Made by a program: the position numbers and the translations under genes. A DNA stretch of 30,138 nucleotides from a virus. Below the pieces are notes generated by a model. That model searched no databases and had not been told where the DNA came from. It saw only the letters and a list, made by a program, of their open reading frames with translations. The stretch covers positions 1 through 30,138 of the IMG/VR virus record IMGVR_UViG_3300042861_000590, one strand, 5' to 3'. Positions 6,748-20,950 of the stretch are shown piece by piece; position 1 is the first letter of the stretch; the number at the start of each line of letters is the position of its first letter.

Positions 6748-7013
6748 TGGCTGGTGATCGTCCTATTGACCCCCAAACTGATCCACTGGATAGCTTCATC
6801 GAAGAGGCAGAGGCACGGTGGGATAGTGCAATGACGGATTACGATGGGCCGTGGAGATACATGTTACCTATCATTGTCCAGCGCCTGATGACTGAAGGCT
6901 TCTCCCACAAGATTCTCGAAGACGCCATCATTGACCAGTGTGACAAGCTTATCCAAGACCTAGCCGAACGATTGTACGAGAAGGCACAAGACCGAGCGAA
7001 GGGGTACGATTGA
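6747..7013 (+). CDS. Hypothetical helical protein, 88 aa
   Basis: Starts inside the stop of the previous gene (TGATG), so it is translationally coupled. Acidic and helical (FIEEAEARWDSAM, ILEDAIIDQCDKLIQDLAERLYEKAQ) with similar size, charge and helix content to the protein upstream; the two may work together or be distant relatives, though I cannot align them convincingly. Function unknown. Confidence 0.7.
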   Translation: MAGDRPIDPQTDPLDSFIEEAEARWDSAMTDYDGPWRYMLPIIVQRLMTEGFSHKILEDAIIDQCDKLIQDLAERLYEKAQDRAKGYD

Positions 7014-7014
7014 G

Positions 7015-7371
7015 ATGACTACCGAAACGAAGTTCGAGGTTGGGAAATACTACAAGCGTGGTGACGGTGAGCTTATCCGGGTGGTGTGTGTTGATGCTCC
7101 GTGTACTTACCCGGTGATTGGTCACATACAGGACGGGACGCCGTGTAACTTCACGTTGGAAGGGAGAGAGCTAGGAAACGAACCAAGTCCTACTCGCGAC
7201 CTCATCCCCACCCCCATCGAACCGAAGAAGAAAGGGGTTGTGTGGGTGAATGTATACGATGACGGCACGAGGGCCGGGGTCGGGCAGACACGGCAGGACG
7301 CTGACATGTGGTCGAAGTACGCCATCGCCCGTATCCGGGTGAGCTGGGAAGAGGGGAGGTTTGATGAGTAA
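7015..7371 (+). CDS. Hypothetical protein, 118 aa
   Basis: Two-part protein. Residues 1-60 are beta-rich (VGKYYKRGDGELIRVVCVD, a fold seen in small phage proteins that begin VGKYYRxRDG). A Pro and Lys-rich linker (PTPIEPKKKG) follows, and residues 75-118 form a small alpha/beta part (VVWVNVYDDGTRAGVG) that resembles a short phage motif of the form WVNVY..G. Functions of such proteins are unknown. Start lies one base after the previous stop. Confidence 0.65.
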   Translation: MTTETKFEVGKYYKRGDGELIRVVCVDAPCTYPVIGHIQDGTPCNFTLEGRELGNEPSPTRDLIPTPIEPKKKGVVWVNVYDDGTRAGVGQTRQDADMWSKYAIARIRVSWEEGRFDE

Positions 7372-7561
7372 TCCATCGCTGGAAGATGGTGTGTGGGAAA
7401 CACCTCCATTGTACGAACTGGTGTACGGTCTGGGGACAGCAGTAATCTCTGCGCAGGTAGTACTGGGCATGATCTCACCGGAGAACACCCACGACCAATG
7501 GCGTTTGTTCAAATTGATCTCCGATATGCGTGACATCATCAACAACCCACCAAAGGTGTAA
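7364..7561 (+). CDS. Hypothetical protein, 65 aa
   Basis: The ATG at 7364 has GGGGAGG four bases upstream and overlaps the end of the previous gene by eight bases; a TTG at 7361 is possible but too near the ribosome site. Hydrophobic middle (YELVYGLGTAVISAQVVLGMIS), which could be one weak membrane helix or a buried helix, then a soluble C-terminal part. Unknown function. Confidence 0.6.
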   Translation: MSNPSLEDGVWETPPLYELVYGLGTAVISAQVVLGMISPENTHDQWRLFKLISDMRDIINNPPKV

Positions 7562-7567
7562 GACGAT

Positions 7568-7885
7568 ATGACGACTACCGAACGTAAACCCCACCCCCAT
7601 GCGGAAGTGATTAAGGCGTATGCTGATGGGTATGAGATTGAGTGGATGCACCCTGCAACAGAGGACTGGCTGTTTCTGAGGGAACCGGCTTTTGAACCAA
7701 CCCAAAAGTACCGTATTAAACCCGAACCCAAGAAGCCCCCTACGACTTGGTATCAGGTGGTGTATCGTAATGAGCTTGGCGACGCCGACATAAGTGACAT
7801 CTTGTGGAAGGAGTGCGAAGCCAAGGACACCTACGGTTCTCGTCTTCTCAAGCTCATCCCCATTTATACCGAGGAGAGTGAGTAA
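7568..7885 (+). CDS. Phage protein of the HAEVIKAYADG type, 105 aa
   Basis: The pattern HAEVIKAYADGYEIEW (residues 11-26), a W-x-F strand, then PAFEPTQKYRIKPEP (residues 40-54) marks a small family frequent in proteobacterial phages and prophages, with no known activity. A Lys/Pro linker joins it to a C-terminal beta-rich extension (TTWYQVVYRNELG). Its own weak ribosome site lies in the six-base gap after the previous gene. Confidence 0.7.
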   Translation: MTTTERKPHPHAEVIKAYADGYEIEWMHPATEDWLFLREPAFEPTQKYRIKPEPKKPPTTWYQVVYRNELGDADISDILWKECEAKDTYGSRLLKLIPIYTEESE

Positions 7886-8227
7886 GTGCCTTTGATGACA
7901 AGTGCGGATATTGATGGTCTTGGAAGGGTTTTATCGATCCTTCGGGCTGTTCACAGGTGGGCACTTAGCCCGACAGTATTCTCAGAGCTAACTGATGTTG
8001 CGGAGACTTGCCAAGAGATCGGCAGGTCTTTCAAACAACACCAACCCAGTACATTGTACATGGTTGGTTTCAACAAGAACGAACAGGCGTGGCCTGTTCA
8101 GCGAAAGGAACTGGCGGGTACAAAAGAAGCTTTGCTTCTGTACCTCCGGTTGATTGCAAGGTTGGAGGAGTATATGGACAAGCACTACATTAAGCGCGAA
8201 TACGACACTGAGGGGAATGTGGAATGA
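7886..8227 (+). CDS. Hypothetical protein, 113 aa
   Basis: The GTG at 7886 follows GAGGAG (7871-7876) at nine bases, which favours it over an ATG three codons later. Soluble and mostly helical, with a central strand region (STLYMVGFNKNEQAWPV) and a C-terminal amphipathic helix (TKEALLLYLRLIARLEEYM). No motif recognised. The gene after it starts in an ATGA overlap. Confidence 0.65.
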   Translation: MPLMTSADIDGLGRVLSILRAVHRWALSPTVFSELTDVAETCQEIGRSFKQHQPSTLYMVGFNKNEQAWPVQRKELAGTKEALLLYLRLIARLEEYMDKHYIKREYDTEGNVE

Positions 8228-8601
8228 TTACCCCGTTTGAAGTGTACCTCGTGATGCAGTTGGATACGATCACGACAGCAGCAGGGCTGTTTGGGTTTGC
8301 AGCTACCTGTGTTGGTGGCTTCGTGATGGTAGTGGGATTCTGCGAAGATGAGACTTGGGCAAAGTGGCTGGGGTCCACGGTTTTTTCCCTCGGATTGTTC
8401 TGCTTGCTGCTTGCAACCTTCCTCCCCTCCACTAAGACCGCAGCCGCTATGATCGTCCTCCCAGCCATCACCTCTGACGAGGTGGTAAAGCCCCTTGGAG
8501 ACGAAGCCCGTGGGTTGTACGACCTTGCGAAGCAAGCCTTGAAGAAGGCTGTAGATGCGCCTGTGACCGAACCGAAGGTGGAGAAGAGCGATGATGAGTA
8601 A
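8224..8601 (+). CDS. Two-helix membrane protein, 125 aa
   Basis: Two clear transmembrane helices, residues 18-39 (AAGLFGFAATCVGGFVMVVG) and 50-68 (GSTVFSLGLFCLLLATFL), are followed by PSTKTAAAMIVLPAI and a soluble acidic tail with an amphipathic helix (LYDLAKQALKKAV). The PSTKTAAAMIVLPAI segment is typical of a recurring phage membrane protein family of unknown role. ATGA overlap upstream. Topology alone would permit a holin, but the long soluble tail and distance from the spanins argue against it. Confidence 0.7.
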   Translation: MITPFEVYLVMQLDTITTAAGLFGFAATCVGGFVMVVGFCEDETWAKWLGSTVFSLGLFCLLLATFLPSTKTAAAMIVLPAITSDEVVKPLGDEARGLYDLAKQALKKAVDAPVTEPKVEKSDDE

Positions 8602-8767
8602 CCGAGAAGTAAAGAATTTCTTTGAGGAGGTGGGTCAACGTGAGCTTCTTGTGGCGTCTCGCTCATGGGACGATAAGGAACCAGTTGAGCTTGGCCATGA
8701 CATCGAGGACTTCTACCAGATGTTCAAGGCCCGTATCAAGCTAGAAGAGGAGGGGCGATATGACTAA
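8591..8767 (+). CDS. Hypothetical protein, 58 aa
   Basis: Small gene between two membrane/soluble neighbours. The ATG at 8591 lies seven bases after GGAG (8580-8583) and overlaps the previous gene by 11 bases; the immediately following ATG (8594) is an alternative. The peptide (MMSNREVKNFFEEVGQRELL, then a D/E-rich helix) is acidic and helical. Its last eight bases overlap the next ATG. The tiling supports it as real; function unknown. Confidence 0.65.
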   Translation: MMSNREVKNFFEEVGQRELLVASRSWDDKEPVELGHDIEDFYQMFKARIKLEEEGRYD

Positions 8768-9083
8768 CGACCGAGAAGCACACCTCCTAGATCGTGTTCG
8801 GGAAACCGCGAAGCGGTGTATCGATCTAGGTGTGAGGGTGGATATCCCGGGACACAACTTCACAGGGAAAGTGGCTTGGGATGCTTACCGGGATTTCTGT
8901 GATGCGACTGACGCCGCCCTATTCCAACTGGCTGAGGTAGCGGGTAGCGGGGATGCGGTGTATACGGAGGAGGATGTGGAAGCTAGCTACTCCGAGGGCT
9001 ATTCGGATGGAAAAGTTGAAGGTTATGAGGAAGGCTTCGATGACGGCTACCGGGACGGGGTAGAAGCAAGTGCCCCTGAGTAA
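8760..9083 (+). CDS. Protein with C-terminal GX3 repeats, 107 aa
   Basis: Residues 1-60 are helical and unremarkable (AHLLDRVRETAKRCIDLG). Residues 79-100 contain Gly every fourth position (EGYSDGKVEGYEEGFDDGYRDG), six GX3 units, a pattern known from Yae1/Lto1-type and FliH-type helices, where it mediates helix packing with a partner. So this is probably a small adaptor, with the partner unknown. GAGGAGGGG upstream supports the start. The 3' end overlaps the primase-helicase start by 14 bases, which links it in expression to the replisome. Confidence 0.7.
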   Translation: MTNDREAHLLDRVRETAKRCIDLGVRVDIPGHNFTGKVAWDAYRDFCDATDAALFQLAEVAGSGDAVYTEEDVEASYSEGYSDGKVEGYEEGFDDGYRDGVEASAPE

Positions 9084-17189: not shown

Positions 17190-18164
17190 ATGACGAGGAT
17201 CATGCAGCCAAAGTCAACGTACACAGTCGACTACCCCGAGGCAATCGAGTTCACTAACAAGCAGGTGTCTATCTTCTGGCCACCTGATGAGATCAAGGTT
17301 GAAAAGGATGTCCACGACATCCGTGTTGAGATGACTGAGGCTGAGCGTCACGGTGTCTTGAGTACGCTCAAGCTGTTTACCATGTACGAGTTGATTGTGG
17401 GTGGTGAGTATTGGGGCGAGAAAGTGTTCAACATGTTCCCTCGCCCTGACATTCAGCGTATGGCTAATTGCTTTTCCTTTTACGAGTTGAACATCCACGC
17501 CCCGTTCTACGCCAAGATCAACGAGGCTTTGAACCTAGCCAACGACGAGTTCTACACCGACTACCTGAAAGACCCGGTATTGAAGGAGCGGATCGAGCAG
17601 CTAGAAGAGGCGGCTGGAATGACCAACCCGGCGTTGTTTCTTGTGGTTCTCGGTATCACCGAGGGTGTGATCCTGTACTCGTCGTTCGCATTCCTTAAGC
17701 ACTTCCAAGCCAAGGGGAAGAACAAGCTGCTGAACATTGTCCGAGGGATCAACTTCTCGGCACGAGATGAGGCACTCCACTCCGAAGCATCGGCTTGGTT
17801 GTTCCGCACTTTGTGCAAGGAAGAGGGTATCAGTCCGGTCGATCTTACCCGTCTAGCACATCCGTTGGTGGAGGCTGCTGTTGAGCACGAGAAGAGGATT
17901 GCCGCTAAGATTTTCGAGAAGGGAGAGATCGACGGTATCACCCAGAAGCAGCTTGAGAACTTCATCGAGAGCCGTGCTGACGTGGTGCTGCGTAACTTCG
18001 GGATGGCTCCTCTCTACAACGTAGAGTACAACCCCATTGGCGAGTGGTTCTATCGGGGGATCAACGGGTACATGGCTAATGACTTCTTCACCGGAATGGG
18101 TCGAGAGTACACCCGCTCATGGGATGCAAGCAGCTTTAAGTGGGAGGCACAAGAACAAGAATGA
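17190..18164 (+). CDS. nrdB: Class I ribonucleotide reductase beta subunit, 324 aa
   Basis: Generates the radical for ribonucleotide reduction. Candidate metal ligands are E67, E99, H103, E158, E194 and H197 (RDEALH at 192-197), and the radical Tyr is Y107, four residues after H103 as in E. coli NrdB (H118, Y122). Spacing between ligands is otherwise close to E. coli (residues 84, 115, 118, 204, 238, 241). The odd point is E99-L-N-I-H103, with three residues between Glu and His where E. coli has two. The C-terminal end (KWEAQEQE) should dock on NrdA. Start has GGAGG-type sites in an A/C-rich leader; the stop overlaps the nrdA ATG. Confidence 0.93.
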   Translation: MTRIMQPKSTYTVDYPEAIEFTNKQVSIFWPPDEIKVEKDVHDIRVEMTEAERHGVLSTLKLFTMYELIVGGEYWGEKVFNMFPRPDIQRMANCFSFYELNIHAPFYAKINEALNLANDEFYTDYLKDPVLKERIEQLEEAAGMTNPALFLVVLGITEGVILYSSFAFLKHFQAKGKNKLLNIVRGINFSARDEALHSEASAWLFRTLCKEEGISPVDLTRLAHPLVEAAVEHEKRIAAKIFEKGEIDGITQKQLENFIESRADVVLRNFGMAPLYNVEYNPIGEWFYRGINGYMANDFFTGMGREYTRSWDASSFKWEAQEQE

Positions 18165-19849
18165 GCGGGCACTACGACGCAACCAAACAAGAGAAGAAGA
18201 AGATGCAAGGGCTGGGTCTTGTCCCTGAGTGGATGAGTACTCCCGGCTACCAGTTGTTCAAGTCGAAGTATCTTCACCACAAGGACAACTTCTACGGCCA
18301 AGCTCGTCTGATCGCACAGACTCTTGCCAAGCACAGCCCTGACTACCACTACTACGCGGAGGAGTTCTTCCAGCTTATTTGGAAGGGATGGTTGTCTTGC
18401 TCCACTCCTGTGCTAGCTAACACGGGAACTGATCGTGGTCTTCCGGTTTCGTGCTCAGGTCAGTATGTGCCTGACTCTATCGAAGGGTTCTATGAGTCCC
18501 GCAAGGAAGCTGCCATCCTGACCAAGCACGGGTTCGGTACGTCAGGCTACCTTGGCGATATCCGTCCACGAGGCGCTCCAATCTCCGTAGGAGGCAAGGC
18601 AAGCGGAACCCTACCCGAGATCAAGGGTTTCGTGCAAGTCTCCCGTGATGTCTCTCAGGGCGGTGTACGTCGAGGTTCGTTTGCCTCGTACCTCCCGATG
18701 GACCACGGCGACTTCTGGGAAGTGGTGCATCACCTTGAGAGCAACCCCGATGACTTGAACCTTGGGTGGAACATCTCTGATAGTTTCCTCAAGAGGCTCC
18801 GTTCTGGTGAACCTGAGGCAGTGGCACGCTATCAGGAAGCCTTGAAGGTCAAGATGATTACGGGCAAGGGGTACTTCTTCTTTCCCGACAAGGCTAATCG
18901 CCGGCTGCCTGAACCGTACAAGAAGTTCCACAAGAAGGTTCACGCCTCTAACCTTTGTTCCGAGATCATCCTTCCAAGTGATGAACAACACACGTTTACG
19001 TGTGTCCTTAGCTCGATGAACCTTAGCCGGTGGGATGAGTGGAAGGATACTAACGCAGTCCAAATTGCCACGGTGTTCCTTGATTGTGTGGCGTCTGAGT
19101 TCATCGCTAAGGCCAAGAACATCACGGGTCTTGACCGGGCTGTGGCCTTCACGGAGAAGGCGCGTGCCCTTGGCTTGGGTGCTTGCGGGTTCCACACGTA
19201 CCTGCAAATGAAGGGCGTTCCGTTCGAGAGTCTTGACGCGATGTACCTTAACCACGACTTCTTCTCGCACATCAAGCAAGAGTCGGACAAGGCTACGCGG
19301 TACTTGGCGGAAGAGCTTGGTGAGCCAGAGTGGTGCAAAGGGTTTGGTGTTCGTAACGCTTCGCTTCGTGCAGTAGCTCCTACCAAGAGCACTGCTCTTA
19401 TCATGGGCGGTATTTCGGAGGGTATCAACCCTGACCCAGCGATGATTTACAATCAGGCTACGGCAGCGGGCGAGGTTGATCGAATCAACCCGGTGCTGTA
19501 CGAGATGATGAAGGAGCGTGGTGTCTACAACAAGCGAGAGATCAACAAGGTCATTGACGACTTCGGTTCGGTGAAGGGTGTTGACTGGCTGAGTGACTCC
19601 GAGAAGGAGGTGTTCAAGACTGCCTTCGAGATCGGGCAAGGTAGTGTGGTACGTCTGGCCTCCAGCCGTGCTCGTTATCTTGACCAGTGGCAAAGTGTCA
19701 ACCTGTTCTTTGCAGGCAACGCACCTCCGGAGTACATCTCGCAAGTTCACCAGATGGCGTTCGAGGATGAGAACATGTTGGCGCTGTACTACGTGTATTC
19801 ATCTTCAGGTGTAGGTGCCTCGAAGGATGAATGTGTTGCGTGTATGTAA
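18161..19849 (+). CDS. nrdA: Class I ribonucleotide reductase alpha subunit, short form, 562 aa
   Basis: Reduces ribonucleotides to deoxyribonucleotides for phage DNA. All catalytic residues are identifiable: C98 and C281 (redox pair, E. coli C225 and C462), N264-L-C266-S-E268 (thiyl radical C266), Y543-Y544 (radical transfer), and C558-x2-C561 at the extreme C-terminus. APTKSTALIMGGISEGI matches the phosphate-binding loop region. At 562 residues it lacks about 200 found in E. coli NrdA (761), including the N-terminal ATP cone, so dATP feedback inhibition is probably absent. ATG at 18161 overlaps the nrdB stop (ATGA); an earlier in-frame ATG at 18140 is inside nrdB. A thioredoxin or glutaredoxin gene is not seen nearby. 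Confidence 0.95.
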   Translation: MSGHYDATKQEKKKMQGLGLVPEWMSTPGYQLFKSKYLHHKDNFYGQARLIAQTLAKHSPDYHYYAEEFFQLIWKGWLSCSTPVLANTGTDRGLPVSCSGQYVPDSIEGFYESRKEAAILTKHGFGTSGYLGDIRPRGAPISVGGKASGTLPEIKGFVQVSRDVSQGGVRRGSFASYLPMDHGDFWEVVHHLESNPDDLNLGWNISDSFLKRLRSGEPEAVARYQEALKVKMITGKGYFFFPDKANRRLPEPYKKFHKKVHASNLCSEIILPSDEQHTFTCVLSSMNLSRWDEWKDTNAVQIATVFLDCVASEFIAKAKNITGLDRAVAFTEKARALGLGACGFHTYLQMKGVPFESLDAMYLNHDFFSHIKQESDKATRYLAEELGEPEWCKGFGVRNASLRAVAPTKSTALIMGGISEGINPDPAMIYNQATAAGEVDRINPVLYEMMKERGVYNKREINKVIDDFGSVKGVDWLSDSEKEVFKTAFEIGQGSVVRLASSRARYLDQWQSVNLFFAGNAPPEYISQVHQMAFEDENMLALYYVYSSSGVGASKDECVACM

Positions 19850-19857
19850 CGCTCTTC

Positions 19858-19871
19858 GCCCCTAGCGGGGC
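19858..19871 (+). other. Hairpin after nrdA
   Basis: GCCCC-TAGC-GGGGC, a perfect 5-bp stem with a 4-base loop eight bases after the nrdA stop. It lacks a T tract, so termination is uncertain; it may stabilise the nrdBA mRNA 3' end. It abuts the TTGACA box of the next promoter. Confidence 0.5.
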
Positions 19872-19900
19872 TTGACACACCCCTGTTAACTGAGTAAAGT
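19872..19900 (+). promoter_or_regulatory. Sigma70-like promoter
   Basis: Perfect -35 box TTGACA (19872-19877), a 17-base spacer, and a -10 box TAAAGT (19895-19900; four of six consensus bases). I found no other noncoding copy of TTGACA in the window. Transcription would start near 19907 and enter the structured gene-free region, so it probably drives a noncoding RNA using the host polymerase. Confidence 0.6.
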
Positions 19901-19906
19901 GTTTTC

Positions 19907-20220
19907 CGAAGCACCGAGGTGATGTGCATTTTAAGGGGCTGTTCTCATACCTCTTTCACTTAGCCCTTGGTAAAAGGGCGGGAACGTTGAGACTGGCTGG
20001 GCGTACCCGGCTGGACGCGCACTCAACAAGTACCGCCCTGCTTCACCTATCGGGTCTGGGCTGGCATACCCCAAGGATTACCCGTCCGAGCAATCCCTCA
20101 CCAAGAGCGAGGGTTGTGTCTAGGGGCCGAACGTATGCCACATCTGTTTTCACTGCCTCGCCCTGCCGTCTCAGCTAAGGCTCAAGCTTACGCTTGGGAC
20201 ATTGAGCGGTGGGGTTTTTT
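19907..20220 (+). ncRNA. Candidate structured noncoding RNA, about 310 nt
   Basis: Between the promoter and a terminator-like end there are many perfectly complementary pairs: GAGGT/ACCTC (19916-19920, 19949-19953), GCCCTT/AAGGGC (19963-19979), GGGCGG/CCGCCC (19976-19981, 20033-20038), GTTGAG/CTCAAC (19986-19991, 20022-20027) enclosing a CTGGG/CCCGG hairpin, GGCATAC/GTATGCC (20063-20069, 20133-20139) enclosing CCCTC/GAGGG (20095-20099, 20109-20113). CGGGT/ACCCG (20051-20055, 20080-20084) would form a pseudoknot or alternative. The GCCCTT/AAGGGC and GGGCGG/CCGCCC stems exclude each other. I see none of the landmarks of RNase P RNA, tmRNA or 6S RNA. The start and end are inferred. Confidence 0.55.
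20161..20220 (+). terminator. Terminator-like end of the candidate RNA
   Basis: CCCTGCCG (20161-20168) can pair with CGGTGGGG (20207-20214) through six Watson-Crick and two G-T pairs, enclosing GCTCAA/TTGAGC (20180-20185, 20202-20207), and six T residues follow (20215-20220). A GC-rich stem directly before a T run fits an intrinsic terminator, though the loop is long and the inner stem shares one base. Confidence 0.5.
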
Positions 20221-20226
20221 AGATGG

Positions 20227-20265
20227 CCCACCCCTCTTTCCCCGCTAGGATACGGGTGGGTTTTT
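20227..20265 (+). terminator. Intrinsic terminator
   Basis: CCCACCC (20227-20233) pairs perfectly with GGGTGGG (20254-20260), followed by TTTTT (20261-20265). The 20-base loop is longer than usual. Together with the element just upstream it makes a double terminator at the end of the first structured segment. Confidence 0.65.
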
Positions 20266-20278
20266 AATGCCCCGGATT

Positions 20279-20386
20279 GATTGACTCCGCGTATATCACG
20301 GCGCAGTAGTAACCCTAGTTCCCCACTGGACATGAGCGCTGGTGGGATTGTTTCTAGGCCGAGCCTGTGGGGCACTAACGTCAATC
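20279..20386 (+). ncRNA. Second structured RNA domain
   Basis: GATTGAC (20279-20285) pairs with GTCAATC (20380-20386), closing 94 bases that contain CCTAG/CTAGG (20313-20317, 20354-20358) enclosing CCCAC/GTGGG (20322-20326, 20341-20345), plus CCG/CGG and GCC/GGC minor stems. It ends in GCTTTT. It may be a separate small RNA, or the 5' leader of the gene at 20447. A weak promoter-like pair (TTTACT, 16 bases, TATTCT) and an ATCCCC-TACC-GGGGAT hairpin (20397-20412) follow before that gene. Confidence 0.4.
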
Positions 20387-20446
20387 GCTTTTACTCATCC
20401 CCTACCGGGGATATTCTTAACATACACCCTTAAAGGGATGCGTGAT

Positions 20447-20647
20447 ATGGAAAAGCCGAAGGCACCGCAAGAACGTGAATCGGGTAATCTGAGCACGAAT
20501 CTCGGGCTTTGTGGGATTTACATTTACACAAGAGCTTTAGACAGTGTCCCTGTCCGCTCCATCGAAGAAGCCGAAATGCTTGTGTTTGCACTCTCCGAGT
20601 GGATCGAGTACAAGCGTCAGCTTGAGTTGTGGGAGCAGAGCGAATGA
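20447..20647 (+). CDS. Hypothetical protein, 66 aa
   Basis: The ATG at 20447 has AAGGG nine bases upstream; an ATG nine bases earlier (20438) touches that site and is less likely, and a longer reading from 20342 would cross the structured RNA. Protein: polar N-terminus, strand LGLCGIYIYTRALD, then a helix SIEEAEMLVFALSEWIEY with a charged end. First gene after the noncoding block and head of the next coupled run. Unknown function. Confidence 0.65.
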   Translation: MEKPKAPQERESGNLSTNLGLCGIYIYTRALDSVPVRSIEEAEMLVFALSEWIEYKRQLELWEQSE

Positions 20648-20754: not shown

Positions 20755-20950
20755 ACTCATGTTTATGGTAGCAACCCTACCACCCTACCTTGTCACCAAC
20801 CAAGGTGATCTTCGAGTTACCACCCCTACCGGGGTGCTTATCACCATCCCGGAAGGGAGTGAGTGGAACACTAACAATGTAAATGTTAGATTGGATGCTC
20901 GTGTTATCACTCTTGATAACACACGTATTTTTGGAGATGGGTTCGAGTGA
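20744..20950 (+). CDS. Hypothetical beta-rich protein, 68 aa
   Basis: I prefer the ATG at 20744, nine to eleven bases after GGAGGAG (20728-20734), over in-frame ATGs at 20735 (too close to that site) and 20696 (deep inside the 36-aa gene). A hydrophobic helix (LIELMFMVATLPPYLV) is followed by strands with Thr and Val (GDLRVTTPTGVLITIP, VNVRLDARVITLDNT), suggesting a small beta sandwich or hairpin protein. The end overlaps the next gene (GTGA). Confidence 0.55.
   Translation: MLIELMFMVATLPPYLVTNQGDLRVTTPTGVLITIPEGSEWNTNNVNVRLDARVITLDNTRIFGDGFE

Follow-up and report, generated by a model that had tools for sequence, protein, structure and literature searches.

The stretch of DNA analyzed here (the window) spans a complete IMG/VR record (30,138 bases), and it raises the question of what is encoded in the 588 nt that separate the stop of a ribonucleotide reductase (RNR) large-subunit gene, at 19849, from the start of the next gene, at 20438. 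A first-pass annotation had read positions 19872 to 20220 of this gap as one promoter-driven, heavily structured noncoding RNA of ~310 nt, following the RNR genes and possibly able to switch between two stems. We compared the gap with its homologues and asked which parts of this description are conserved.

Protein and pattern searches of IMG/VR identified homologues in six further records (L002, L003, L004, L021, L022, and L024), all from the same narrow phage group as the window. Alignment of the seven records revealed a constant core of 136 to 149 nt, which we call D1, followed by mosaic sequence. A covariance model of this core (R1) finds exactly one copy per record, and the set amounts to five distinct sequences plus one 1-nt variant, 66 to 97% identical. 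The gap is indeed noncoding at this point, as no reading frame is open through D1 in every variant and the length differences are not multiples of three. A short leader peptide within the P2 arm was also considered and was rejected, being absent from L004.

The sigma-70-type promoter named at first pass (TTGACA, 17-nt spacer, TAAAGT) is present, and its 29-bp block is conserved in six other contigs, identically in five and with one mismatch in the sixth (L024). Matches to the promoter consensus across the region do not exceed the number expected by chance (4 found versus 4.9 expected). In the window, D1 begins 7 nt past the -10 element, at the predicted +1. Coordinates of these and the other features are collected in Table 1.

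Table 1. Features of the window at and around the D1 locus, with the evidence or remarks for each.
Feature	Positions	Strand	Evidence or remarks
RNR small subunit	17190-18164		
RNR large subunit	18140-19849		
Sigma-70-type promoter	19872-19900	+	TTGACA 19872-19877, 17-nt spacer, TAAAGT 19895-19900
D1, conserved three-way-junction RNA	19907-20045	+	Folds of 6 sequences agree; covariation; column-shuffle z -5.9; model R1
P1 5' strand, GAAGC	19908-19912	+	Pairs with 20040-20044; invariant in all variants
P2 5' strand, ACCGAG	19913-19918	+	Pairs with 19966-19971; G-U, A-U, or G-C at one pair
P2 3' strand, CUUGGU	19966-19971	+	Arm carries variable loop
P3 5' strand, GGGCGG	19976-19981	+	Pairs with 20033-20038; C-G to U-G in L003
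Loop-E-type internal loop, GAAC side	19982-19985	+	Opposite 20028-20032; invariant columns
P4 5' strand, GUUGAG	19986-19991	+	Pairs with 20022-20027; 3 two-sided pair changes
P5 5' strand, CUGGCUGGG	19993-20001	+	Pairs with 20006-20014; 3 two-sided pair changes
ACGCGCA bulge between P5 and P4	20015-20021	+	Conserved as A[C/U]GCGCA in alignment
Loop-E-type internal loop, AAGUA side	20028-20032	+	AGUA invariant; AAGUA or UAGUA across variants
P3 3' strand (20033-20038) and P1 3' strand (20040-20044)	20033-20044	+	Folds; pair changes
D2, exchangeable 105-nt block holding GGCATAC/GTATGCC	20046-20150	+	Sequence comparison
T1, intrinsic terminator	20160-20220	+	Hairpin -29 kcal/mol, T6; window and L002 only
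T2, second intrinsic terminator	20226-20265	+	-17 kcal/mol, T5; window and L002 only
D4, conserved block	20269-20386	+	Alignment; common to window, L002, and L004
Next gene, 69 aa, no known family	20438-20647	+	Present after D1 in all records

When folded singly, each of the D1 sequences (n = 6) gives the same three-way junction, and all of the pair cells in the alignment (186/186) hold standard pairs. Compensatory changes in homologues, the test that the first-pass annotation had itself put forward, are present: both partners have changed at 6 of the 31 pairs, three in P4 and three in P5, compared with 0 to 1 after partners were slid by 1 to 3 columns and 2.2 on average after letters were shuffled. 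RNAalifold recovers the core unaided, with nine two-sided-changed pairs in its own consensus, and the consensus energy has a z-score of -5.9 against column-shuffled alignments, none of 500 being as stable. Single-sequence z-scores are modest (-1.5 to -2.6). The excess folding that had been expected over the entire stretch is slight (z = -1.5 for the whole 314 nt) and is better for D1 alone (z = -2.55). Because the scored G-U pairs fit the + strand only, we place the RNA on the promoter strand. D1 defines a new structured RNA family in phages, one whose fold is conserved while its sequence changes. The idea of a promoter-linked structured RNA at this locus, with transcription predicted from that promoter, is thus upheld by a fold kept in every homologue.

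The layout of D1 consists of a closing stem, P1, from which extend a P2 arm with a variable tip and an arm formed by P3, P4, and P5. The tips of P2 and P5 vary freely while the core is fixed; in L024, P5 is a 13-bp stem of largely different sequence. The GAA/AGUA of the loop-E-type internal loop is invariant among D1 variants. All of the stems named at first pass exist, and two of them, GGGCGG/CCGCCC and GTTGAG/CTCAAC, are P3 and P4 and are kept in every homologue, but GGCATAC/GTATGCC lies outside the RNA in the separate D2 block. The proposed switch did not survive comparison, as the alternative stem GCCCTT/AAGGGC is interrupted or absent in L003, L004, L021, and L024. Compared among the window, L024, L003, and L021, the P2 tip (19919-19965 in the window) occurs as discrete types. 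That of the window is exactly that of L024, yet the P5 stems of the two differ, which suggests recombination inside the D1 RNA gene.

Behind D1, conservation is of a different kind. D2 is identical at 105 of 105 positions in the window, L003, L021, and L022 and is absent from L002, L004, and L024. This identity holds despite a difference of ~30% between the D1 of the window and those of L003, L021, and L022, and D2 is missing from L002 although the flanks there are ~99% identical to those of the window; we therefore regard D2 as a module that has been exchanged among these phages, with its junction at the 3' edge of D1. It holds an 8-bp inverted repeat, TGGCATAC/GTATGCCA, and may represent a small module that is mobile or swappable. 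We rejected D2 as part of the structured RNA, since it folds no better than shuffles (z = +0.4), its copies are identical, and it has no covariation. The GC stem and T6 described as the end of the RNA do form a strong terminator, T1 (fold z = -3.6), but only in two of the seven records. Over the 5.5 kb that follow the promoter in the window, the only strong terminators detected are T1 and T2, directly behind D1. In the other five records (L003, L004, L021, L022, and L024), D1 leads to the downstream gene without a terminator, and L024 lacks D2, T1, T2, and D4 altogether, so that D1 ends about 60 nt before the next gene. D4, whose counterpart in L004 is 6907-7003, could form an H-type pseudoknot, to judge from its letters (GCCCC/GGGGC plus GATTGAY/GTCAATC around a length-variable hairpin). 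Neither energy nor covariation supports this pseudoknot; without it, the D4 fold has a z-score of about 0, and one one-sided pair change is the only change seen. The single ~310-nt RNA thus gives way to a conserved RNA of 136 to 149 nt followed by sequence that is exchanged between near-identical phages, and the interval 19872 to 20220, while containing D1, merges it with the swappable D2 and with terminators of two records.

The gene neighborhood bears on the supposed tie to the RNR genes. Upstream of D1, the window, L002, L003, and L004 carry a class I RNR. L021 and L022 have an adenosylcobalamin-dependent RNR (RTPR) in its place, and L024 has another such enzyme, 28% identical to theirs. 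Downstream, the gene order is kept: a shared set of small genes is followed by a 5'-3' exonuclease and dUTPase, and by ThyX in those records that extend far enough. Because three RNRs alternate on one side and the other is constant, D1 goes with its promoter and the downstream genes and not with a particular RNR. The functional tie to the RNR genes is not sustained, these having been swapped for unrelated ones, and on the sequence evidence the link is positional only. Distant RNR relatives (L005 to L016) have no D1 behind the RNR.

Several features of this region deserve mention in their own right. One narrow phage group has filled one RNR locus with three solutions, either a two-gene class I enzyme or one of two B12-dependent RTPRs (for example, 17190-19849 in the window, 8080-10104 in L119, and 6748-8820 on the - strand in L117); the right-hand neighbors are the same in each case, and the left-hand ones are similar. 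The class I large-subunit protein is 99 to 100% identical among the window (18140-19849), L002, L003, and L004, compared with regional DNA identity down to 91%, a sign of very strong purifying selection. In addition, the hairpin CCCCTA[G/C]CGGGG occurs in three copies within 1 kb (19859-19870, 20399-20410, and 20823-20834; 0 expected in shuffles), the first just ahead of the D1 promoter and the second just ahead of a gene start.

Searches for relatives returned nothing beyond this phage group. Rfam 15 has no match to D1, D2, or D4 of the window up to E = 10, in agreement with the earlier statement that the RNA is not RNase P RNA, tmRNA, or 6S RNA, and for the other D1 variants its only matches were two weak ones that lie outside D1. 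By blastn, no D1 relative was found in 50,697 phage records or 72,556 plasmids. Exact core patterns matched in IMG/VR within the D1 phage group only, and looser patterns, run over IMG/VR and GTDB genomes, gave no match that folds according to model R1, the 61 pattern matches in GTDB being about our estimate for chance. The best outside matches to R1 itself reach 14 bits (E = 0.36), and none of the other loci searched contains a credible copy.

Among known phage RNAs, two invite comparison. The phi29-type packaging RNA (pRNA; RF00044) is also a phage RNA with a three-way junction and is similar in size to D1. Unlike pRNA, D1 lies among replication and nucleotide genes and not beside packaging genes, and it has no match to the RF00044 covariance model. 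The put RNA of phage HK022 is a suppressor of termination that binds the beta' zinc-binding domain. It measures about 73 nt, is built of two stem-loops and a triplex, and needs no dedicated protein factors; putL heads its transcript immediately after the PL promoter and has a -10-like NANNAT at +23 to +28 (PMC9378689). D1 resembles put in its predicted placement, as a structured phage RNA with which a transcript from a host sigma-70 promoter opens, and also in cis action on polymerase, which for D1 is a proposal only. It differs in being a three-way junction of 136 to 149 nt with a loop-E motif, and NANNAT at +23 to +28 is not a conserved feature of it, the corresponding stretch of D1 being the variable, nonconserved P2 arm. 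D1 may thus operate in the manner of put, yet it lacks the put features that could be checked and falls outside the put family. Like the orphan RNA families from phages and metagenomes in Rfam, none of which matches it, D1 is known by comparative genomics only.

What D1 does is less certain than what it is. Our preferred reading, which we hold tentatively and at somewhat less than an even chance, is that D1 represents a new family of phage leader RNAs that act in cis, perhaps by enabling polymerase to read through terminators. Host RNA polymerase would start a transcript between the RNR cassette and the downstream gene block, and D1, at the extreme 5' end of this transcript, would adopt its three-way junction immediately upon synthesis. 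A search for an N4-like virion polymerase gave no significant match. D1 would then most likely act in cis on the transcript it heads. This is argued by the five records in which no terminator separates it from the same downstream gene, ~60 nt away in L024, and by a downstream gene order that is kept while the upstream RNR is replaced.

The likeliest readout would be the polymerase itself, D1 allowing it to pass downstream terminators as HK022 put RNA does. Two points favor this proposal. In the window and L002, a polymerase arriving at T1 and T2 comes fresh from transcribing D1, and a consensus scan turned up no other good promoter ahead of the downstream genes. Taken alone, antitermination is nonetheless the weakest link in our analysis, and we consider it doubtful. 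With no strong terminator right after D1 in five of the seven records, antitermination there would have nothing near to overcome, and the downstream genes could have a promoter that a consensus scan misses.

The main rival to the leader reading is a stand-alone RNA ending at T1, which would make it about 310 nt long in the window and about 220 nt long in L002, with processing supplying the end in other phages. D1 would then be the body of a trans-acting regulator, sponge, or protein-binding decoy, as would befit an RNA with its own strong promoter, elaborate conserved internal loops, freely varying P2 and P5 tips on a fixed core, and, in two records (the window and L002), a strong terminator downstream. 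Against such an RNA count a length that is not conserved and the five records that read from D1 into the same gene with no terminator between, and we regard it as rather unlikely, if still a serious contender. A ligand- or protein-sensing leader, riboswitch-like or autoregulatory and controlling attenuation or translation through exchangeable platforms (D2, T1-T2, and D4), would also be at home here, given a constant compact core with an invariant loop-E motif and a conserved bulge, followed by variable 3' modules that include terminators. It is improbable, however, as D1 matches no Rfam riboswitch family and the one alternative pairing seen in a nonexhaustive search, GCCCTT/AAGGGC, is not conserved.

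It is also conceivable that D1 mainly protects the phage mRNA against decay at its 5' end, with a stable 5' stem and almost no single-stranded leader, and P1 does begin at the predicted transcription start. A simple hairpin would suffice for this, and the invariant loop-E motif and the A[C/U]GCGCA bulge would be left unexplained, so we give the idea little credence. Least probable is conservation at the level of DNA, in which D1 would be a recombination joint or replication origin for module exchange and its fold incidental. Homology between the phages does break at the promoter-D1 edges, and three different RNRs lie to the left of D1, but two-sided compensatory changes and G-U pairs are what selection for RNA structure leaves. 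A replication origin at D1 was also considered separately and rejected, no GC-skew switch lying nearby.

D1 is small and well defined, with strong covariation, and sits directly on a conserved promoter, which places both its structure and its cis or trans role within reach of a reporter assay; natural variants with and without terminators behind D1 make the antitermination idea directly testable. To our knowledge, few phage-encoded structured RNAs are known, and we know of very few examples of factor-free RNA control of transcription. Should D1 act on polymerase in this manner, which we think unlikely at present, it would be a second, structurally unrelated phage RNA that alone makes host RNA polymerase resistant to terminators, having evolved independently of put.
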